The translations under genes were made by a program, and so were the position numbers. The notes under the pieces were generated by a model. The model saw only the letters and a program-made list of their open reading frames with translations. It was not told where the DNA came from and did no database searches. A stretch of 64,000 nt of DNA from a virus, in IMG/VR virus record IMGVR_UViG_3300037553_000311, positions 1 to 64,000 of that record; one strand, 5' to 3'. Positions 10,860 to 38,529 of the stretch are shown here, one piece after another; the stretch's first letter is position 1, and each line of letters starts with the position of its first letter.

Positions 10860-11640
10860 ACTTTGCTAATTTTTTAATCTTTACCATAGCAACTGTCGTA
10901 ATAGGCTCTCCGTCGTACCGTGTAGTTTGTACTGTATGAACGAGTTACAAATATTAGTTAGTGTGTATCTTAGAATTTCTAATTCTATTCTATTGGGAGA
11001 AGCGAACTTTGATTCGGAGAATTAAAGTCGCTTCGTAACTAATCTTTTATATATAGGCAGTATATGTAAGGTGCTTGTGTTTTTCCATTTTGTGAGATGA
11101 AAAATCAGATTGCTTCCAAAACAAATAACACGCATCGTAACTTATGTTTTTTTTATTCACACTTCTCCACTTAAAAAATATATAAAAAAAAAGGCGGTGG
11201 ATATATAATAGGTAAGACACTAACACTGCTACCACCGCCACCTTGCGACTGGAGGCGAAGCCGCCAGGAGCTAGTGCATAAATGACCAGGTGCTATAATG
11301 ATCGTCTAGTTATTATTTTATCAATCTCAACTCATGTGAAATTACCATTCTTCTAGAGAGTGGTTCTATCTATCATGGTGAGTGATCTATAATCAAAACT
11401 TGCAATTCCAAAAAGTGAATTTTTGAGTAAATTTATCAACTATTGATGAATTTTTCAATTTACAAAACTGCTCAGTCCCACGTTTACCGGACGTAAGCTT
11501 CACGCCCATGTAGCATGGACGTAGTACGAATAATTTCAGCTCACCCCTTGTTCTATCGGGGATGGTACCAAGCACGGTAATACCGAACGTAAGTCAATTG
11601 AACCCAATCTACGTGAAAGTAGATTGGGTTCAATCGTTAT
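10860..11640 (+). ncRNA. Candidate large structured non-coding RNA (~780 nt)
   Basis: This block stands out from its AT-rich surroundings by local GC-rich helices and lack of coding potential. Visible helices: GAAGCG-ACTTT at 10999-11010 with 11024-11034 (one bulge), GGCGGTGG (11193-11200) with CCACCGCC (11232-11239), an interrupted hairpin around TGGAGGCGAAGCCGCCA (~11250), CCATG-TAG-CATGG (~11507-11519) and CCCC/GGGG (~11545-11562). It ends in a 16-bp terminator-like hairpin at 11597-11634. Size, 3' hairpin and placement in a phage non-coding island recall the large ornate phage RNAs (GOLLD, ROOL), but I cannot match conserved sequences of either class. The orientation is inferred from the hairpin at the right end. 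Confidence 0.5.
11597..11634 (+). terminator. 16-bp perfect hairpin at the end of the candidate RNA
   Basis: The arms built on TTGAACCCAATCTAC pair perfectly around a GTGAAA loop. A long T-run is absent (CGTTATAAT follows), so it could be the 3' terminal stem of the RNA rather than a classical intrinsic terminator. Confidence 0.6.
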
Positions 11641-11930
11641 AATATCGGTGGTGAGTCATATTATTATCTCTCAATCACTATAGTATCGCTCGTAGTGATA
11701 TGTCTAATTAGGTGATGAGTGATGAACATCTACATATATTGAGATCGCATATCTAATTTTAATATCAAATACCTACTCCGAAATTAGATATATTTAATAA
11801 ATTTGATATAGATATTAGCTAAAAAGTACATATATCCGATGTATCCAATCTACTCTAAATAGACATATATTCAATCTACTCTAAAATTAGATATCAGGTA
11901 ACGGATCAATTAGTATCTAATATATGCCAC

Positions 11931-12340
11931 ATGATCTAGTGATTAGTAGAAGGTATCGGATAATACTTGATACCTCCCACTGATCTAGTGATTAGTAGAG
12001 ATACATCAGATACAGCCAGATGTACTTACTGATCTTCGATTTGATGAAATACATACTACGTTCGATGTAGTAGGTGATTAGCTGATTTTACACTCTTCCA
12101 TTCCTCGGGGTATAAGTTTTGCTAAAAATGCTTACGAGCGGTCTCAGAAGCAAATCATACATTTAGTACAGATGTGATTTGTAGTCATAAATCACCAGTG
12201 CTTATATTACCGATACTAGTGATTTTATCGAACCACTTTCCTCAGGGAATATATCACTTATTTTACATATAAATCACCAGCACCTATAGTGTAATGATAA
12301 TTGCAAATACTCTTCCAATCCTCGGGGTAGATACTTTTTT
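11931..12340. repeat. Hairpin units followed by a second structured block
   Basis: 11931-12050 carries two dispersed hairpin units (TATCGGATAATACTTGATA type). 12060-12340 carries two copies of CTCTTCCAWTCCTCGGGGTA (12093-12112 and 12310-12329). Between them are a hairpin with CAAATC/GATTTG arms near 12152-12182 and one with AAATCAC/GTGATTT arms near 12190-12225. The paired motif at both ends suggests a duplicated or folded RNA element. There is no coding potential. Confidence 0.45.
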
Positions 12341-12369
12341 ACTCATATCAGATGACCTCACTTTCAACA

Positions 12370-12670
12370 TGAGTAGATATCTTTCGCTACTACTCAAAGT
12401 GCATATATTTTTAGCATAGAATCAGATGGTAAATGTAGCTGATATCTGATTAGATTAGCTAGATATCAGCTAAAATAAAGTGCTAAAAAAGAGGGTCTGT
12501 CACCCGTGGTTTTATAAGGGGTAGGAGAGGTGCTATTTCTACCTGTATATCCCTACGTGACCCCCCATATTTGCTATATTTCGTGTTTCCTACGTGCAGT
12601 AATATAGGCGTTCAGAAATGGGTATTTCAGTAAGTCTGAAACTTATCTGAAATTAGCAGTATTTGAAGAT
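12370..12670 (+). repeat. Right arm of large inverted repeat
   Basis: This is the counterpart of 9605-9895 in opposite orientation, and in the same orientation as the partial copy at ~4700-4885. It includes the TATCCCTACGTGACCCCCCA element and the GTTCAGAAATGGGTATTTCAG segment. The module at 12493-12526 (GGGTCTGTCACCCGTGG...GGGGTAGGA) reads the same way on the + strand as in the left arm, so it has flipped relative to its flanks. Confidence 0.75.
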
Positions 12671-12765
12671 CCGGTAGTATATTCTAAGTATATTTGAGTA
12701 GTATCTGAATATATCTGATAATGAGATAATGTCAGATATAGTAGTGATGATATATGAACTAAACG

Positions 12766-12802
12766 TATCCATAGCATACCCGTAATAGGTATGCTATGGA
12801 TA
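12766..12802 (-). terminator. CATAGCATACC-type terminator
   Basis: A 15-bp stem (TATCCATAGCATACC with its complement) lies 12 bases beyond the stop of the minus-strand gene 12814-14061. It probably ends the packaging operon and may also insulate the island. Confidence 0.75.
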
Positions 12803-12813
12803 TCGTGTATGGA

Positions 12814-14061
12814 TTATAAGCTCTCAAATGATACTAGACATATGTAGAGTGATAATGCTACTATCAGTAATGAGATAGTATTAGATCTTCGTGTGATTTT
12901 ATTATCAGTAATCAAATACTCTATCGATAGTTTATTATTAGTGAGATCATTATTAGTCTTCTGGTATACCGAGTATATCTTCTTAGTATTAGTATAGATA
13001 GCTATCTTACTATTCACATTGACTGACTTATTATGTATAGCAGAATCATAGATGGAATACACTACATCATCTATCAATTTGACTAGACCTACAGATATGA
13101 TAGTACCATTACGTTTAGTTATCACCTTCTCAGATTCATTATCAGCTACCTGTATATTAGCTACATCAGTAATGACTAATATAGCACGTTTCAACATACC
13201 ATAACTTATCATAGGGATGGTATGATTCACCATCTTGATATAACCTTCGTTAACAAACTGAGACTTAGATAATATCTTATTATATACAGCGCTAGATATA
13301 TGACTAAAAGAAGCATTGAGTTCCTTGAGTATCTTCTCACCATCTAGCGTAGTGGTGCGAGAAAATGATTTCATGTAATCATCAGCTTCCTTAGTCTCTA
13401 AGTAGTTACCTACGATATTTTGTAACTGACTACGTATTCGTGTACTAGTATCAGTGATGAGATATAGTACTTTAGCATCATCGTTAAAGTTCATGACAGT
13501 ATTGTAATGGATATTGTCTTTAGATATTATCGTAGTAGACCTATTAGTGGTAACCTTCTTCCATGTATGATCTTGCTTGATACTATACTTGAGTGATAAT
13601 CTTTCCATTACTGTTTGCATGATATCATAATTAGCTCCATGAGGTAGATAGTGATTGATAGCGCTAGCAATGAATCTGTACTGATGATAGTTCAGTACGT
13701 TAGTAGCTGTCTTTATCATCAATTTACTAGGTAATCTACTAGTCATTATCTTATGTATCATATATACAGAGACTAAGTTTAGTGCATCTGACACTACCTT
13801 ATGATCTTTATTGACAGATGGGATAGCTTTTATGATAGCTATGACATCACGTTCATCTAGTGATAGTACTTCAAAGAAGTTAGAGAAGTCATCGGATCTA
13901 AAAACAAACTTCTCTACAGCTAACATGTTAGAGTTGAGTACTAGTGGGTGAGTTTTATATATCTCAAATGATAGCACCATACGATTGAATCGTTCACATA
14001 ATTTAGGTGTAATCTTAAGATCTAGATCCTTATCGAAATGTGTTAGTATATGAGATGACAT
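12814..14061 (-). CDS. Probable virion protein with C-terminal membrane helix
   Basis: This 415-residue protein is the last gene of a minus-strand operon after TerL and the metalloprotease (21-bp gap to the latter). It has mixed alpha/beta composition with segments such as DALNLVSVYMIHKIMTSRL, YHQYRFIASAINHYLPHG and DTSTRIRSQLQNIVGNYL. Proteins of this pattern in giant myoviruses are usually annotated as structural; this is recollection, not a search. The final ~20 residues (NTISLLIVALSLYICLVSF) form a transmembrane helix, which is odd for a capsid component. The operon partner also has membrane segments. GAGGAT lies upstream of the start. Specific function unknown. Confidence 0.75.
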   Translation of the reverse strand: MSSHILTHFDKDLDLKITPKLCERFNRMVLSFEIYKTHPLVLNSNMLAVEKFVFRSDDFSNFFEVLSLDERDVIAIIKAIPSVNKDHKVVSDALNLVSVYMIHKIMTSRLPSKLMIKTATNVLNYHQYRFIASAINHYLPHGANYDIMQTVMERLSLKYSIKQDHTWKKVTTNRSTTIISKDNIHYNTVMNFNDDAKVLYLITDTSTRIRSQLQNIVGNYLETKEADDYMKSFSRTTTLDGEKILKELNASFSHISSAVYNKILSKSQFVNEGYIKMVNHTIPMISYGMLKRAILVITDVANIQVADNESEKVITKRNGTIISVGLVKLIDDVVYSIYDSAIHNKSVNVNSKIAIYTNTKKIYSVYQKTNNDLTNNKLSIEYLITDNKITRRSNTISLLIVALSLYICLVSFESL

Positions 14062-27482: not shown

Positions 27483-27643
27483 GATATCTTTATTTTTTAC
27501 ACTTTAGCATGAGCAAGAGATGTTTGCTCCTACTCAGAGTACATCAGAACCAGTGTACATAGATGTTATTTTTCATACGATCCATTCATATGTATAGGTA
27601 TATAATCGATATGACATTACGCTTTTTTTTAGGAGTATGTATT

Positions 27644-29056
27644 ATGAGTATTAAAAAAATAGTATCTAAAGCATGTATGCATTCATGTCTAGTGAAGAAG
27701 AAATTCACTGAAGCTGTCATCGTAAAAGAGAGAACACTGTATGATGATGGTAGTACATCATCTAGGTTAGCTACATATGTAGATCCTAAGAGATCTTTCT
27801 ACATGACTCAGAAGAGATATCGTGATTATAAGTATAAGATTGAACTAGAGGATATATCTAAGTTAGATAAGTTCACAGTAAAGAATATAGATCTACGAAG
27901 AAAGTTAGCTGAAGTACTAGGTCTACGTCCTGGATATCATAAAGATGCTGTCCTATTTAGATCTCCTTATATATTTGGTGCTGATATTTCAATAGAGTCT
28001 CTAATCAAGATGCACTACATGAATACATTTGAAATAGATATACCACCAACATATGGATTCTTAGATATTGAAACATCGATAGATACAGATGAGATTATGC
28101 TCATATCGTATATAGCAAATGGTACAGTATATTTATGCGTACTAGATCACTTCTTATATAGAGAAGAGACAGATACTAATGGTAATATCAATCGTATCAA
28201 AGTATCAGAAGTAGAGATGAATAATTATCTGCTGAAATCACTAGGTGATTATACTAGTAAGTTAAATCCATCTAAAAAGATACCACAGAATCTCATCTCT
28301 ACTATGAAAGGATTAAAGTATGAGCTTAAAGTATTCACTAATGAGATAGAACTGATAGCATGGACTTTTAAGAATATCCATCATGAGCAAGTAGATATGA
28401 TAGGTATTTGGAATATGGGTTATGATATCCCATATATACTAGATAGGTTGAAATTATTGAAAGTATCATCTGAATCTATTTTCTGTGACCCTACGTTAGA
28501 TGAATCATTCCGTTACGTATCTTATATTGCAGATAAGAATAAGAGGATAGCACATTTCACTCTAAAGTGGGATTACCTACATTGTACTTCTGGTTCTCAA
28601 TTTATAGATAGTATGAGTCTATTTAGTCAGGTACGTAGAACTGCTGGATTTAGAGCAAAATATACACTAGATGCTATACTAGATGAGGAATTAGGTCTAT
28701 CTAAATTACCATTAAAAGATGGTGGTTCTCATGCAGTCAATCAGCGACGTCACTTCATGGATTATACTGTATATAATGCATTCGATAGTATATCATTATA
28801 TCTACTAGAGATGAAGAATAATGATCTATTAGCGATGTCTATTCTTGCTGGTATGACTCCAATATCTAAGTTTGCAGCAGCTGGTATCAAAAGTACCAAT
28901 AGTACTTATCGTCATCATTTAGCTAAAGGTAAGATCTTAGCTAGTGTTAGTAATCTTGATAACTATGTGAAGTTAGATAAGTTATTTAGTAATTGTGGTG
29001 GTCTAGTATTACCTCCGCATAATGTTGAAAATGTAGGGATATGCTTAGATATCTAG
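27644..29056 (+). CDS. Family B DNA polymerase, exonuclease fragment
   Basis: This 470-residue protein (start ATG 27644 eight bases after AGGAG; a 27-codon upstream extension of the frame lacks a site) carries the N-terminal and 3'-5' exonuclease domains of a family B polymerase. Exo I FLDIETS is at about 139-145, Exo II WNMGYDIPYI at about 256-265, and Exo III YNAFD at about 377-381. It ends at CGGLVLPPHNVENVGICLDI, just where the palm domain with motif A should begin. Motif A is found instead in the next gene, 107 bases downstream. The exonuclease triad looks intact, so the fragment could proofread in trans or assemble with the other pieces. Confidence 0.88.
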   Translation: MSIKKIVSKACMHSCLVKKKFTEAVIVKERTLYDDGSTSSRLATYVDPKRSFYMTQKRYRDYKYKIELEDISKLDKFTVKNIDLRRKLAEVLGLRPGYHKDAVLFRSPYIFGADISIESLIKMHYMNTFEIDIPPTYGFLDIETSIDTDEIMLISYIANGTVYLCVLDHFLYREETDTNGNINRIKVSEVEMNNYLLKSLGDYTSKLNPSKKIPQNLISTMKGLKYELKVFTNEIELIAWTFKNIHHEQVDMIGIWNMGYDIPYILDRLKLLKVSSESIFCDPTLDESFRYVSYIADKNKRIAHFTLKWDYLHCTSGSQFIDSMSLFSQVRRTAGFRAKYTLDAILDEELGLSKLPLKDGGSHAVNQRRHFMDYTVYNAFDSISLYLLEMKNNDLLAMSILAGMTPISKFAAAGIKSTNSTYRHHLAKGKILASVSNLDNYVKLDKLFSNCGGLVLPPHNVENVGICLDI

Positions 29057-29163
29057 TACTGTATACTCCTACGTGAAGGTCATATTTAGCCTATTTTAGA
29101 TTCACCACTCCCGATATAATAGGTACTGAGAATGGAGTATATAGATAATTGGAGAATGTCACC
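29057..29163 (+). promoter_or_regulatory. TACGTGA repeat element between polymerase fragments
   Basis: ACTCCTACGTGAAGGTCATA and the following TTTAGCCTATTTTAGATT, then ATATAATAGGTACTGAGAAT, align with the elements at ~38730-38820, ~4752-4850 and ~12535-12630. GGAG at 29151-29154 serves the next gene. There is no endonuclease or intron signature between the two polymerase pieces. Confidence 0.55.
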
Positions 29164-29463
29164 ATGTCAAATGATACCACTAGTAGTGATAATAAAGTAC
29201 CGACTACACTTTCTTTATACGTGAGTCAGTGTGATTTTAAATCAGCATACCCATGTATCATGCGTACAGCTAATATATCTAGAGATACGTTCACAGGAGT
29301 AGTATATAGTATCGAAGGTAGAGATAGATCATCAATCATAGATTACTATTCTAACCTGATACATCTAAGAGAAAATGCAGTATACTTATGTAGTGAGTAT
29401 CATAATTTCCCAGATTACCTAGAGATGGATGATGTGGTAAGTCAGTACTTATCTACTCAGTGA
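29164..29463 (+). CDS. Family B DNA polymerase, motif A fragment
   Basis: This 99-residue protein has ATG 29164 nine bases after GGAG. It contains DFKSAYPCIMRTANISRDTF at about 29-48, which is the family B motif A (DFxSLYPSI) with the catalytic Asp29 and the usual NIS that follows. It stops about 50 residues later (DDVVSQYLSTQ), before the fingers. Motif B (KxxxNSxYG) and motif C (YGDTDS) are in no open frame of this window. It would be non-functional alone. Together with the exonuclease piece it shows a polymerase broken into at least three parts, or a decayed copy. Its short, neat frame and ribosome site argue against recent random decay. Confidence 0.75.
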   Translation: MSNDTTSSDNKVPTTLSLYVSQCDFKSAYPCIMRTANISRDTFTGVVYSIEGRDRSSIIDYYSNLIHLRENAVYLCSEYHNFPDYLEMDDVVSQYLSTQ

Positions 29464-29538
29464 TTATGCACATATCTTTTTATTCACCAGCATCATACCT
29501 ATAGGTGATAAATGAAAAATTAATTATAAGGTGACATT

Positions 29539-30198
29539 ATGCAGTATGTATTCTTTACAGGACGGAATAGAGTAGGTAAGACAACATTATCTCTAGCATT
29601 ACATCAGTATCTAATTAGTAATGGTAGTGATGTTGAAATAGTATCATTTGCAGAGGCTATGAGGTATGAGATAGTTGAATATTATGGTATCCCATATGAT
29701 GTAATATTTGATAAGAGTATAGATAAGAATACATATATGATCACATTAGGTGATTACCCATATCTAAATGAAGCTGTAGAGTTACATATATCTAGTGGAC
29801 TTACTGATAATGAGGATACATTTAAGTCAACCACATATACATTACGAGAACTACTTATAACACATGGTACTCATATCAGACGTAAAGATGATAATGATTA
29901 TTGGGTGAAGTTATTTTCACATCATGCCATGGTGCTAGCTGAACGTGGAGTAGATATGATGATCGTAGATGATGCTAGATATCAGAATGAATTTGATACT
30001 ATAGCTACATGTGATCTCATATTCTGGTTAGATAATGGATTCACAGGTACGTCAGATCTACCACAAGATAATGTTGTCGCTTGGTATCGTGCAAATAGAG
30101 ATAGATGTATCAGCATGGATATACCTATCCCACTGTCACCGAGTAAATGTGATATCATACTACAAGATGTAATTAAACACATAGGAGATCGTACATGA
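29539..30198 (+). CDS. Deoxynucleoside monophosphate kinase, T4 gp1-like
   Basis: This 219-residue protein has a P-loop GRNRVGKTT at about 8-16. Its signature resembles phage dNMP kinases: FAEAMRYEIVEYYGIP, later LRELLITHGTHIRRKDDNDYWVKLFSHHA and VDMMIVDDARYQNEFD. It phosphorylates dNMPs to dNDPs for DNA synthesis, using ATP. AAGGTG lies before the start. The stop overlaps the next gene's start (ATGA), so the pair is translationally coupled. It fits with the class II reductase and ThyX-like protein as the phage's nucleotide supply set. Confidence 0.85.
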   Translation: MQYVFFTGRNRVGKTTLSLALHQYLISNGSDVEIVSFAEAMRYEIVEYYGIPYDVIFDKSIDKNTYMITLGDYPYLNEAVELHISSGLTDNEDTFKSTTYTLRELLITHGTHIRRKDDNDYWVKLFSHHAMVLAERGVDMMIVDDARYQNEFDTIATCDLIFWLDNGFTGTSDLPQDNVVAWYRANRDRCISMDIPIPLSPSKCDIILQDVIKHIGDRT

Positions 30199-30758
30199 TA
30201 CATAGTAAGACTACGTTAAACTGTCTCTCAATCGATCTTGGATCTAATCTCGGTTGGGTGAAAAGTCGAATCACATTACAACCTAAGCTCAAGTTAGACG
30301 TGACTGAGCATAATACAATAAATCTAAATAAGCTCACTGATATAGAGATGCGGAATGATTTTAATAATGTGTATCATCGGAACCGTGTCAAGTTGACTAT
30401 CTTAGAAGACATACTAACAAAACTGACTAGTCGTCTTAAATATGATCTATATATAGTGGAAGATGTATTTGCTAATCCATATAGAGTAGCAGCTTTTAAA
30501 TCTCTACTACTGATGATGGATACATTAGAGCGTATAGTTAATATTAAACATGGTAAGAGACTACACACGATAGCACCAATGGCTATCAAAAAGATAGTAG
30601 CTGATATGGGTAATGCTGATAAGATGGCTGTACAAGAAGCATTACTAGCTAATGAAGATATCACTATCAGGAAGCCAGATCTATTAACTGAACATACAAG
30701 TGATGCAATCGGTGTAGCGTACGCCTTCAGTAAAAAGTACCTACTCAATAGTATTTGA
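30195..30758 (+). CDS. RuvC-like Holliday junction resolvase
   Basis: This 187-residue RNase H-fold nuclease has LSIDLGSNLGW with Asp14, IVEDVFANPYRVAAFKSL with Glu89, the APMAIKKIVADMGNADKMAVQEAL region typical of RuvC, and EHTSDAIGVAYAF with His167 and Asp170. Together these give the expected acidic/His catalytic set. It resolves branched DNA during recombination or before packaging. Length matches bacterial and phage RuvC. It is coupled by ATGA overlap to the dNMP kinase and followed by a 14-bp hairpin terminator. Confidence 0.85.
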   Translation: MIHSKTTLNCLSIDLGSNLGWVKSRITLQPKLKLDVTEHNTINLNKLTDIEMRNDFNNVYHRNRVKLTILEDILTKLTSRLKYDLYIVEDVFANPYRVAAFKSLLLMMDTLERIVNIKHGKRLHTIAPMAIKKIVADMGNADKMAVQEALLANEDITIRKPDLLTEHTSDAIGVAYAFSKKYLLNSI

Positions 30759-30927: not shown

Positions 30928-32235
30928 ATGATTAACATATCTAAATTAGACACCAGCGAGATCTCATCAGCTAAACTATTAGCAAGTATATGCTACCAGC
31001 CATCATTATCAGTAGCTAAACAAAAGTGTCAAAGTGTCCCACTCAAGAGAGGATTATATAACACTGGACATCATACTACGTTTGAGAGTACCCATCATAC
31101 ATTTATGATAGAATCTATACCGGTGTCACTAGTCACATTTGGACTACATATGAATCACCCATTTTATAACTCACTACAACGGAGTGGTAGATATTGTACA
31201 GACATGTTCAATTCAGATACACTACTACCTCACGTCAGTGAATTTATAGATAAGTATCTCATAGGGAATGACTTTAATGTAGCTGATAGATTGAGACTGA
31301 TAACATATGTATTCTCAGGAGTAAAGTTATATCAAGACTATATCGATATCATCACAGAAGATGCAATCTTAGCTATAGTTAAAGAACGTCCTAACTTACC
31401 TAGTAAAGTTATCAATATGCAAGCTACTAGATTTGCTCAAGAGCAATTACGCTGTGTCATATCTACAATTACCCCAACAGGATTAGCTCATACATTATCT
31501 ACTATCGCATTAGCTAGTATGTATAATGTATCTTGGAATCAACCATTGAGAGATATCCTATTTGATATGGTAAAGTTATCTACTACAGGTACAGAGTTAG
31601 AATTTATACTAGATGGAGTTCGACCTATAAATCATTGGGTACCTACTATGTCCACTCATGATGTATCTTTAGCTATATCACCTATCGTATCTAACGTGTC
31701 TGGTAAGCATCCAAATATACTTAACACTATACCAGATAAGCTCAATCTATCACCATATGATCCACATACTTCAGATACATTAGATGATAACATCACTACA
31801 GAGATATCTACATCTATCATGAGTTATGGACAAGATCAACGTCATCGTACCATAGAGAGATCTAATCCTCATATCACATGTAGTTTATATATACCACCAT
31901 TACTAAGGAGACATAGTGAATTAGTAGCTAGATATAGTGACATCAAACAGAACTGGATAAGTATGACTAGACACTATGGTCTTGATAAACTCATCCACTT
32001 CATTCCATATGGATCAATGGTGAAATATACTGAACGAGCTACTACTAAAGCATTTCATCATAAGACAGCTAAACGATTATGTCTTAAATCTCAAGAAGAG
32101 ATATATGAAGTAGCTAGGTTAAGTAATATAGCTAATGGAACTAATCTATCACCACCATGCATCTCTCGCAGATGTCGTGAGACGGTAACATGTGGTCGTG
32201 TACGTGATTCTGATGTCAGTAGAGATTTGATATAA
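30928..32235 (+). CDS. thyX: ThyX-like flavin-dependent thymidylate synthase (divergent)
   Basis: The protein has 435 residues, about twice the usual ThyX length. The N-terminal ~220 residues follow the family: GLYNTGHHTTFESTHHTFMI, IPVSLVTFGLHMNHPFYNSLQRSGRYC at about 64-90, and FAQEQLRCVISTITPTGLAHTLS. The classical RHRxxSxNxxSxR signature is altered to HPFYNSLQRSGRY, keeping the Ser-x-Arg-Tyr end. A second half of about 200 residues (from TTGTELEFIL on) lacks obvious motifs but is similar in composition and may be a second family unit. Expected reaction: dUMP to dTMP with FAD and methylenetetrahydrofolate; the altered signature leaves activity uncertain. AGGAG precedes the start. Confidence 0.75.
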   Translation: MINISKLDTSEISSAKLLASICYQPSLSVAKQKCQSVPLKRGLYNTGHHTTFESTHHTFMIESIPVSLVTFGLHMNHPFYNSLQRSGRYCTDMFNSDTLLPHVSEFIDKYLIGNDFNVADRLRLITYVFSGVKLYQDYIDIITEDAILAIVKERPNLPSKVINMQATRFAQEQLRCVISTITPTGLAHTLSTIALASMYNVSWNQPLRDILFDMVKLSTTGTELEFILDGVRPINHWVPTMSTHDVSLAISPIVSNVSGKHPNILNTIPDKLNLSPYDPHTSDTLDDNITTEISTSIMSYGQDQRHRTIERSNPHITCSLYIPPLLRRHSELVARYSDIKQNWISMTRHYGLDKLIHFIPYGSMVKYTERATTKAFHHKTAKRLCLKSQEEIYEVARLSNIANGTNLSPPCISRRCRETVTCGRVRDSDVSRDLI

Positions 32236-33460: not shown

Positions 33461-35014
33461 TTATTTGATACCTAATATTGACTCAATGTCAATGTGCTCT
33501 ATCTTAGATGTAGTAGGATTAGAGTGTATATTTCTAACAAATGCTGGGTTACTATGGACGTCATCTGGTATACCTATAATAGGATCTTCAAATAGGTAAG
33601 CACAGAACTTGTCTACTTCTGGAGTATCATCAACATATCTATGTTTACCCCATTGCATAGTTAGCCAAGATCTACCAGCATCATCGAGTTCAATGTTCAT
33701 ATAAGCTACGAAATCAAATTCTCTCCCTATACCAATACTACCAGCAGTATGTCGTTCACCGAATTGCTTTACTGGATGTGGGACACCTGATCCTACGATA
33801 TCACTAGCACCTCTATTTAATTGTGCGGCAGTAAAGAACGTAGTACCGACTGCTTTAAAGAAGTTACATGTTCGATTACATAGCTGATTTATCAATACAT
33901 CATTACCAGAGCGACTAAATTTACCATCACCTTTCTTCATTAGCAGTAAGTAATCTATGATGCAAGCTACTATATTGTATCCTGAGTTAGTATACTTTTC
34001 ATGTAACCTAACTAAGTCATCATAACCAAATTCATCAGGTAAATATCTCTCAATCACTATAGTGAATTCGCCACGATTAAAGTAATCATAGATGGCATTT
34101 ACTACATCTTCATCTGTCATATCACCTGATGGATTATTACCAGTGATAGACTTATACATCTGATTGAACATTTTCATCATACTCATGTATCCGATATCTT
34201 CAAATGATATAATCAGGATCACTGGCTGTTTCCCAGGTATCTTAGGTGGAGTACTATAATCATTTATCCACTTAGCTAAAGACCTCAGCATACTACTCTT
34301 GTAATTATGTTGCCTAGCACAGAATAATACACTCTCACCTAAATAGAAACCACCTTTACTACCACACATCTTATTGAGACCTTGTAGTCCAGTCTTCAAT
34401 ATGTAATCTACATGTCTATCTTTATACATAGAGACAGCATCTTTGATACTAGACTTCTTACTAAAGTCAATCTTCTCTACAGGACCACCTTTACCTATGA
34501 AACTATCGATATCCATGATAGTATTCTTAAAGTCACCTATGAGGTCTTTTATCTCTGTAATCTTATCAGTCTGATCTTCTACGTTATAAGCTAGTTTACA
34601 TTCTCTAATGCTCCCATATAACTTACTGATATATGAGTTACTCTTATGCCATATAACTATGTTGTTGAGCTTCTCAGATAGGTTAGCTAATGTAGTAGCA
34701 TTTGTCTTAGTCTTCAGTAATCCACGGATAGTTTCCTTTATCACCTTATCTCGTCTGAATACCTTATTACTTAAGTATCGAGTCATCAGGTTACTGATAT
34801 CTGACTTGTTTTCTTCTAGTAGTAATCCCTGGGAGATAACATCTTTGCATAACGATATATATAGATTACAGTAATTGATATTATTAGTACTCAATGATGA
34901 TGCGCTATCGACGTATAATTCAAATAGCTCATCAGCTAGATGCTTAGTTTTTACAGTATTGATATGCATTAGTAGTCTTAGTAAGTCATAAAATAAAGTA
35001 GCATCGATGTGCAT
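33461..35014 (-). CDS. DnaB-like replicative helicase
   Basis: The protein has 517 residues. The C-terminal RecA-type domain begins near LKTGLQGLNKMCGSKGGFYLGESVLFCARQ (about 207-235). The P-loop is atypical, ARQHNYKSS at about 233-241, where DnaB/gp41 have GxxxxGKS/T. Then come IISFED (about 268-273, catalytic Glu), Walker B ACIIDYLLL at about 350-358, TTFFTAAQLNRG at about 392-403 and AGSIGIGREFDFVAYM. The N-terminal ~200 residues are helical and could be the collar domain. GGAG precedes the ATG. It would unwind DNA at the phage fork; the loss of the standard P-loop Gly is shared with the RecA-like gene at 43361. Confidence 0.85.
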   Translation of the reverse strand: MHIDATLFYDLLRLLMHINTVKTKHLADELFELYVDSASSLSTNNINYCNLYISLCKDVISQGLLLEENKSDISNLMTRYLSNKVFRRDKVIKETIRGLLKTKTNATTLANLSEKLNNIVIWHKSNSYISKLYGSIRECKLAYNVEDQTDKITEIKDLIGDFKNTIMDIDSFIGKGGPVEKIDFSKKSSIKDAVSMYKDRHVDYILKTGLQGLNKMCGSKGGFYLGESVLFCARQHNYKSSMLRSLAKWINDYSTPPKIPGKQPVILIISFEDIGYMSMMKMFNQMYKSITGNNPSGDMTDEDVVNAIYDYFNRGEFTIVIERYLPDEFGYDDLVRLHEKYTNSGYNIVACIIDYLLLMKKGDGKFSRSGNDVLINQLCNRTCNFFKAVGTTFFTAAQLNRGASDIVGSGVPHPVKQFGERHTAGSIGIGREFDFVAYMNIELDDAGRSWLTMQWGKHRYVDDTPEVDKFCAYLFEDPIIGIPDDVHSNPAFVRNIHSNPTTSKIEHIDIESILGIK

Positions 35015-36339: not shown

Positions 36340-38529
36340 ATGAGCAATATTAACTTTGAAGAATTTATTGGTAGCTGCGAATCTCTTGATCTCCAAGCTA
36401 CTCCAGATAATATGAATCATAATGAAGTACATGTGATCGGTGGCGTATATGGTCATGTGAAAGAGTTCCTCGTTCAGACTAATCTTGCTGGCGATCAGAT
36501 GGCTTCACTTGAGTCATTCAATACTGCTATCAGCAACTTTAATCCTCAGGTAGCTCTTACTGATATCGGTCCTGAAGATATCCAGACACTTTGCGCATCT
36601 TGTGGTATCAGTGAAGTAGATATGCGTGCTGCTGTTGAATCAGTAGGACTGTGTATTCATAACTACACTAATAACTATGACCTTCAGACTCACTTCGCAT
36701 CTTCTTCACCTTCCGCTTCTCATGGTGAATTTGAGATGAGGGATCTCGATACAATCTATGATCCTAAAGTAGTTGACAATATGTACATGGACCCAAAAGC
36801 AGCCATTGAAGCATTTGGTGCCACTACTAATAATACTATCACTGATGCTAAAGTAGCTATCACTGTAAGTATCCTTAGGTTTCACCGTTCAGTTATTCAA
36901 CGTCTGCTTCCAACAGTCCCCACTACTTCGAACATCATGACTTTCAAAGTAGATCATCTTGAGACATATGACCTCACCAAGTCTCGTGATAATAATAGTT
37001 CAGTACGTGAAGGTGATCATCAGACTCCATTCGTTGACCTGTACAGAGATCCATCACCAGCGAATATCGATCCTAAGCCTATCGTTTTGCGTACAGCTAA
37101 TGATACTACTCCTAATAAACTGATCGATGAGAATATTGTTAAAATTGGTACTGAACTCAACATGTTCGATTACTCTCTCGATGCTGGTACCTATGGGTAC
37201 AATCATGTCGATTACACAGATCTTGTAGGTGATGATGTACGTATCAAATCTCTCTACATTACAGTGGGTGATGGTAGCGTTACTGAGATGGTTCCAGTTA
37301 ACACTATGACAGAATCAGGAGCTCGTTTGGTAATGAGCCTCAATAATAATGATTCAGCTGATCGTTCAGCTAATCTCACTGGTGTAACTGGTCTCAAAGA
37401 TGTTACTACTATCATGGATGGTACAGTATCTACAATCCTTGATGGCTTCAGTGCAGATGCAGTAATCAAAGTATCATACAACGTATCTGGTAGCATCAAC
37501 CTTAGGACTTCTAACTTGATCGTTCACGGTATCATCTCTGTTGAACTTTCTACTGTATCTGGTAATGCTGTAATCAGTGCTGATCAGACCCTGTTCGACA
37601 CTCTCACTATCGAGCTTGCAGCTTATGAAGTAGCAGCTAATTTCTCAGAAGAGAATGTACGTAAGACAACTAAAGCTCTCCGTATCCTCTCTAAACAATA
37701 TGGTTACGAGATCAAAGGATCAGCTAATACAGTAGTACAGTATTCTCTGAATCAGACTCGTCCAGAAGTAGTAATCGATGGTCTTGCTAAACTCCAGGGT
37801 ATCGGAATCGATGATCGTGGTATCAATATCATCATGAATGGTATCAGTGAGATCAAAGACAAAATCACAGCAGAAGCTGCTCTCGATATCCATTACTCTA
37901 AATCTATTGCTAACTCTTATGTTAGTGGACAACGTATTCGCCCTTATGTATATCAGGGTAATATCGATGTGACAAATAGTGTAACTATCAAAGAGTCAGA
38001 TCGTCTTGGTGATGTCCGTTCTTATACTGAGAAAATCATGCTGGAAGTAGTAACACGTTTGATGAATGAGTCTTTTTATCAACAAGAGCTTGGTACTGGT
38101 GAGAAAGTAGTATTCAATGTACTCACCTCAGGATTTATCAAAGATGCACTCTTGACAGTTCCTCATTATCATGATCACTTGAGAGATACTTCAGCAGATG
38201 CAGTCAATGATGGTCAGGTAGAATTCCGTAGAACTCTTCCTAATGGTGTAGTGTTGAATATCTTTACCACTACATTTGAGTACATGACTGATCGTATCAT
38301 CATGGTACCAGTACGTCCTAATAATCCTCGTAGTACTCTGAACTTTGCTTGCAATGCAGTACGTGGTTCATTTGTAGCTCAAGCTACTCCTAGTGTAGAT
38401 GGAGCTATTTACAATCAGCTCATCGCTAGTACTCGTGAGATGCCTATCGTACTCACACCTATGGCAGCTATGTTGACTGTCACTGGACTGTCTGCTGTAT
38501 TTGAAGGTAATGGCGGACTCGGTGCATAA
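36340..38529 (+). CDS. Major capsid protein candidate
   Basis: This 729-residue protein has clear high-expression codon choice (CTC, CGT, GGT, ATC, AAC) unlike most genes here. AAGGAAAT precedes the ATG. Size is close to phiKZ-type capsid proteins. The N-terminal ~160 residues (to about SASHGEFEMRDLDTIYDP) look like a removable delta domain. The body begins DAKVAITVSILRFHRSVIQRLLPTVPTTSNIMTFKVDHLE, typical of capsid E-loop and N-arm regions, and ends beta-rich with PNNPRSTLNFACNAVRGSFV. A prohead protease gene is in the window, and xxE sites near the delta-domain end are plausible targets. Assignment rests on context, size and codon bias. Confidence 0.75.
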   Translation: MSNINFEEFIGSCESLDLQATPDNMNHNEVHVIGGVYGHVKEFLVQTNLAGDQMASLESFNTAISNFNPQVALTDIGPEDIQTLCASCGISEVDMRAAVESVGLCIHNYTNNYDLQTHFASSSPSASHGEFEMRDLDTIYDPKVVDNMYMDPKAAIEAFGATTNNTITDAKVAITVSILRFHRSVIQRLLPTVPTTSNIMTFKVDHLETYDLTKSRDNNSSVREGDHQTPFVDLYRDPSPANIDPKPIVLRTANDTTPNKLIDENIVKIGTELNMFDYSLDAGTYGYNHVDYTDLVGDDVRIKSLYITVGDGSVTEMVPVNTMTESGARLVMSLNNNDSADRSANLTGVTGLKDVTTIMDGTVSTILDGFSADAVIKVSYNVSGSINLRTSNLIVHGIISVELSTVSGNAVISADQTLFDTLTIELAAYEVAANFSEENVRKTTKALRILSKQYGYEIKGSANTVVQYSLNQTRPEVVIDGLAKLQGIGIDDRGINIIMNGISEIKDKITAEAALDIHYSKSIANSYVSGQRIRPYVYQGNIDVTNSVTIKESDRLGDVRSYTEKIMLEVVTRLMNESFYQQELGTGEKVVFNVLTSGFIKDALLTVPHYHDHLRDTSADAVNDGQVEFRRTLPNGVVLNIFTTTFEYMTDRIIMVPVRPNNPRSTLNFACNAVRGSFVAQATPSVDGAIYNQLIASTREMPIVLTPMAAMLTVTGLSAVFEGNGGLGA

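Follow-up and report, generated by a model that had tools for sequence, protein, structure and literature searches.

A DNA polymerase is typically a single catalytic chain. In PhiKZ-like phages, a lineage of jumbo phages, however, the family B DNA polymerase (PolB) is normally encoded by two genes, one for an N-piece (phrog_3011) that carries the exonuclease and motif A, and a distant one for a C-piece (PF20286, the Pfam family divDNApol; phrog_2927) that carries the fingers, motif B and motif C. Examples are PhiKZ gp82 with gp50, and SPN3US gp222 (594 aa; exonuclease and motif A) with gp248 (759 aa, divDNApol; motifs B and C), the latter encoded elsewhere in the genome. The literature already describes the PhiKZ polymerase as a two-subunit split enzyme (PMC5105663, citing Cornelissen et al. 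2012) and the C-piece as a polymerase without a fused exonuclease (Iyer et al., 2021 review, PMC7824862). In Aeromonas phages 44RR and 25, gp43 is split into 43A and 43B, with an intercistronic untranslated sequence and the homing endonuclease gene seg43, and the split subunits of phage 25 co-purify with polymerase activity (PMC2988022). Likewise, Aeh1 nrdA, which is split by insertion of a homing endonuclease (mobE), is fully functional (PMC2988022).

Here we analysed a window of 64,000 nt of viral DNA (bases 1-64000 of a 92,684-bp IMG/VR record) in which the exonuclease and motif A of a PhiKZ-like PolB lie in two genes. The locus shares with the PhiKZ type its lineage, the break after motif A, homology over the full length of the N-piece and, by prediction, a C-piece that is far away, but differs in that exonuclease and motif A form one polypeptide in 14/14 aligned cultured-phage records. 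As in 44RR and 25, a PolB gene is cut by a short untranslated insert and one relative has an endonuclease gene in the gap; the gp43 genes, however, are in two pieces only, belong to an ordinary T4-type polymerase of an independent lineage and have their cut downstream of motif A (43A residue 397) and upstream of motif B, whereas the break in the window precedes motif A. Aeh1 nrdA is similarly the gene of an essential enzyme that is in pieces and still works, although it encodes a ribonucleotide reductase, and at our locus an endonuclease ORF occurs only in the gap of one relative. The unusual feature is thus the additional break that separates exonuclease from motif A, the break after motif A being already known, and a literature search of partial coverage returned no report of a three-piece PolB. 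We consider it very probable that an already two-gene PhiKZ-like PolB underwent a further gene fission and that three genes encode the polymerase.

The two N-piece genes in the window

The features of the locus and its surroundings are as follows.

27630..27634, plus strand: Shine-Dalgarno-like AGGAG of polB-exo, from sequence
27644..29056, plus strand: polB-exo, putative 470-aa exonuclease subunit; ATG at 27644, stop at 29054-29056
28064..28072, plus strand: Exo I motif DIE; D141 and E143 invariant in alignment A1
28409..28426, plus strand: Exo II motif WNMGYD; N257 and D261 invariant in alignment A1
28772..28786, plus strand: Exo III motif YNAFD; Y377 and D381 invariant in alignment A1
29057..29163, plus strand: untranslated 107-nt spacer between the cistrons, with stops in all three frames
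29151..29154, plus strand: Shine-Dalgarno-like GGAG of polB-A, from sequence
29164..29463, plus strand: polB-A, putative 99-aa motif-A subunit; ATG at 29164, stop at 29461-29463
29233..29253, plus strand: motif A, DFKSAYP, with the metal-binding Asp and steric-gate Tyr
29539..30198, plus strand: dNMP-kinase-like gene (PF21448, phrog_139; synteny)
30195..30758, plus strand: RuvC-like resolvase gene in the polymerase-piece neighbourhood (phrog_159; synteny)
33461-35014: divergent DnaB (PF20307, 1.6e-55)
36340-38526: PhiKZ capsid protein (PF25620, 3.4e-30)

Profile matches to a PhiKZ-type capsid protein and a divergent DnaB assign the contig, which is a fragment, to a PhiKZ-like phage. We also observed a ThyX-like protein near the polymerase pieces (30928-32235; PF02511, 4e-8). 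A motif like VYGGTGTDYFxGVATDTNNDIICVGYT, possibly forming beta-propeller repeats, recurs in about ten ORFs dispersed along the contig (5288-6547, 39203-40339, 57147-58262, 58585-59289 and 63555-64000 in the window, and onward to about 72.5 kb of the contig). All of these ORFs match a single ORF of one relative (L121, below) and are, on this comparison, a lineage-specific expansion.

PolB-exo comprises an N-terminal domain, the 3'-5' exonuclease and the first palm strand region, matching positions 7-445 of the 576 in phrog_3011 (9.7e-76) and, above the cut-off, PF03104 (2e-6). The Exo I, II and III carboxylates of family B DNA polymerases are all intact. The preliminary description had the exonuclease part end just before the palm; the exo ORF in addition includes the first palm strand region (GGLVLPP) ahead of the break.

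PolB-A is a palm segment that begins with the strand preceding motif A and extends as far as the C terminus of the usual N-piece. It matches phrog_3011 at positions 480-563 (1e-9 to 1e-10), so that the two genes match two parts of one family, while its match to PF00136 reaches just 13.4 bits, below the cut-off. Its motif is of the DxxSxYP type. The two ORFs lie in different reading frames and share the phage's codon bias. The in-frame codon score of polB-A (0.237) exceeds that of all 220 off-frame 297-nt stretches (maximum -0.147), which speaks against an ORF that arose by chance. These results bear out the earlier reading of a separate 99-codon motif-A gene and of good ribosome sites on both pieces.

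We found no terminator-like site in the 107-nt spacer and no match to the group I intron model (RF00028, E<=10) in window positions 28700-29600. As a structured RNA the spacer folds like its shuffles (z -0.13), and a scan of the polB region for sigma-70 promoters gave a site count not above chance.

Relatives that share the break and relatives with introns

Relatives were located through family alignments, with 80 loci coming from a family-wide scan and more from a clade-directed scan; exact peptide patterns taken from the exo piece and from the capsid protein yielded no close relatives in viral_contigs, and a scan of genome_contigs yielded no relatives. Among the 117 loci examined, 92 encode the exonuclease together with motif A in a single ORF and 20 carry an interruption; the other 5 either stop short of motif A or show no detectable one.

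Two relatives, L120 and L121, have the same break as the window between exonuclease and motif A, and in none of the three do the two form the single polypeptide of the PhiKZ type. The exo piece of the window is 46-48% identical to theirs (about 46-51% across the three phages) and the motif-A piece 43.5%, with homologous separate motif-A genes at 5363-5632 in L120 and 7271-7564 in L121. The break falls in the same loop, after VGxxL, and an alignment of the three revealed no conserved residue lost at the junction. The dNMP-kinase-like gene follows next in all three phages, and the ThyX-like gene is also kept. In L120, 3 nt separate the exo stop codon from the motif-A ATG, whose ribosome site, GGAGG, sits within the end of the exo gene. 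In L121, the motif-A piece starts at a TTG preceded by GGAGG, and the pieces lie 1.9 kb apart with two ORFs in the gap, one of which is GIY-YIG/T5orf172-like (phrog_681, 4e-7; PF10544, 0.011, below the cut-off). No endonuclease ORF was found at the break in the window or L120. The three phages form a single clade (SH-aLRT 100); the break is known from these three genomes only, all of them incomplete metagenomic contigs.

A sequencing or assembly error might have split a normal N-piece gene, given that the window comes from one metagenomic contig. The break nevertheless recurs independently in L120 and L121, so that three independent contigs show it, and the 107-nt insert carries its own ribosome site; we are almost certain that no such error is involved.

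An intron between the pieces, with splicing to one polypeptide, is how many relatives arrange this gene. Group I introns (RF00028) were found in 13/13 Rfam-tested interrupted relatives other than L120 and L121 (the interrupted L032, L075, L134, L135 and L140 stand outside that test), and they occupy two sites of the N-piece gene, one following DWI and the other at the codons of motif A. In such intron-interrupted genes, for example those of L053, L035 and L082, the same gene is broken within about 20-30 codons of motif A. They differ from our locus in having a ribozyme, in exon-2 ORFs that typically have no proper start and in a product that is presumably one chain, whereas the motif-A ORFs of the split-gene phages have their own ribosome sites. 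The split site in the window, L120 and L121 is also distinct from both intron sites. No RF00028 match was obtained in L120 or L121 either, the insertion in the window is at most about 140 nt, and the 3-nt spacer rules an intron out in L120. On the tree, the introns represent 14 scattered gains or losses, compared with one change for the fission in the window clade. Splicing, which the preliminary description had left as an escape from its reading, is hence highly unlikely here.

The introns deserve mention in themselves. They occur in the PhiKZ-like N-piece gene of L035, L078, L045, L056, presumably L134, and others, with two in the single polymerase gene of L035 (5353-8607). L134 and L135 are interrupted and the near-identical L136 is not, which suggests recent intron mobility.

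Ribosomal bypassing, frameshifting or a split intein might instead unite the pieces in one chain. T4 gene 60-type bypassing, which spans 50 nt, offers a precedent, and the 107-nt spacer is able to form an 11-bp stem. Its folding, however, is no better than that of shuffled sequences, the gap in L121 is 1.9 kb long and holds two ORFs, and the junction adds no more than between a few and roughly a dozen residues, far below intein size. We regard joining by any of these routes as extremely improbable, and return to separate chains from a fissioned gene as the preferred reading.

The C-piece and the fate of the broken gene

Motifs B and C had been reported as nowhere in the window, and this holds: searches with PF00136, PF20286 and a custom C-piece profile (hmmsearch --max) found neither the motifs nor a C-piece in the window or in the whole 92,684-bp contig, itself a fragment. 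A C-piece hidden in the contig was rejected by PF20286 and the custom profile at maximum sensitivity. Since the lineage encodes a distant C-piece, this absence is ordinary. It also qualifies the earlier picture of a polymerase broken on both sides of motif A: both breaks are real, but only the one before motif A is unusual, the later one being the known PhiKZ split.

A C-piece is present in 20/20 relatives of a first set and in 4/9 of a second set that includes short fragments. In addition, L121 has an intact one of 753 aa that contains both motif B and SDTDS, so that this one genome holds all three genes (exo, motif-A and C-piece). Collinearity between the window contig and L121 extends over 12.8-92.5 kb of the former and 14.6-98.6 kb of the latter; the L121 C-piece lies at 142-144 kb, about 44 kb beyond the point matching the end of the contig. 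From this arrangement, the polB-C gene of the window phage is predicted to lie outside the contig.

The N- and C-pieces cover complementary parts of PolB, both in PF00136 (59-94 and 98-190) and when mapped by RB69 gp43 and Pol delta, the C-piece aligning to the fingers and motif B part of Pol delta. Across 21 aligned C-pieces, motif C shows little or no variation in its DTDS and no conserved Asp occurs upstream of motif B, which argues that the N-piece chain provides motif A across the whole lineage; a C-piece with a motif A of its own was rejected on the same ground. Throughout the PhiKZ lineage, separate polypeptides accordingly provide the motif A catalytic Asp and the motif C DTD (for example, the L004 C-piece at 11544-13823), a division between chains that the 2021 review (PMC7824862) leaves unmentioned.

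The pieces could also be relics, the decaying remains of a polymerase gene after another enzyme had replaced it: the gene is broken, and the contig holds no C-piece. Yet the break is common to three phages whose exo pieces are about 46-51% identical, all three have retained their ORFs, their ribosome sites, every Exo motif and motif A, and L121 has an intact C-piece and no other PolB. A complete PolB, sought in both the window contig and L121, was found in neither. Of the two options in the preliminary description, relic pieces are therefore very unlikely, and assembly from three or more polypeptides is favoured by the conserved break, the roughly equal conservation of the pieces, their own ribosome sites and the L121 C-piece. 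We argue, from residues and ORFs retained over long divergence, that selection keeps the split pieces, which are real and conserved and most likely a working three-gene variant of the PhiKZ split PolB.

Position of the cut and a proposed three-subunit polymerase

When the N-piece profile is aligned to RB69 gp43, the motif A segment corresponds to residues 405-431 of gp43, which contain DLTSLYPS, and the fission falls between about 380 and 405. An AlphaFold2 model of an unbroken N-piece (L020) had a mean pLDDT of 87.6, with an exonuclease body, mostly above 90, that matched RB69 gp43 (Foldseek 2.6e-16). Residues from about 440 to about 530 are low-confidence; the break site (about 463) and motif A (476-484) lie inside, within a stretch of pLDDT 44-74 that, as modelled, is not confidently ordered without a partner. 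The model of the L121 C-piece (pLDDT 81.9) matched RB69 gp43 weakly (6e-5). We infer that the motif-A segment may fold only together with the C-subunit, in which case the cut would separate a self-sufficient exonuclease from a palm-completing subunit.

In the proposed mechanism, a single fission in the loop that immediately precedes motif A would have given three genes, polB-exo (27644-29056), polB-A (29164-29463) and the predicted off-contig polB-C. PolB-exo and polB-A would be co-transcribed and translated from separate ribosome sites. The motif-A subunit of about 90-100 residues would insert into the C-subunit and complete the palm, its Asp joining the DTD of motif C to hold two metals, and the exonuclease subunit would dock as a proofreading module, so that the three chains would reassemble into one enzyme. 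The break probably derives from insertion of a mobile element (a homing endonuclease or a short intercistronic insert), as in gene 43 of phages 25 and 44RR and in Aeh1 nrdA. Because introns and an endonuclease ORF cluster at the same spot in relatives, the split could plausibly stem from such an insertion and its later loss; an endonuclease may alternatively have entered an already split gene, as noted for phage 25.

A bolder reading, which we put forward as possible but rather doubtful, is a replicative polymerase with its active-site carboxylates on different chains and a stand-alone motif-A subunit of about 90-100 residues apart from the exonuclease, such that the exonuclease and polymerase modules could be assembled, exchanged or regulated independently. 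If true, this would allow, for instance, a core that lacks proofreading and consists of the motif-A subunit and the C-subunit. The placement of exonuclease, motif A and motifs B and C on three chains would show where the PolB fold tolerates cuts under selection, and the assembly of an active site in trans would become directly testable. It would also show how a single site in a replication gene comes to be the common target of introns, endonucleases and fissions.
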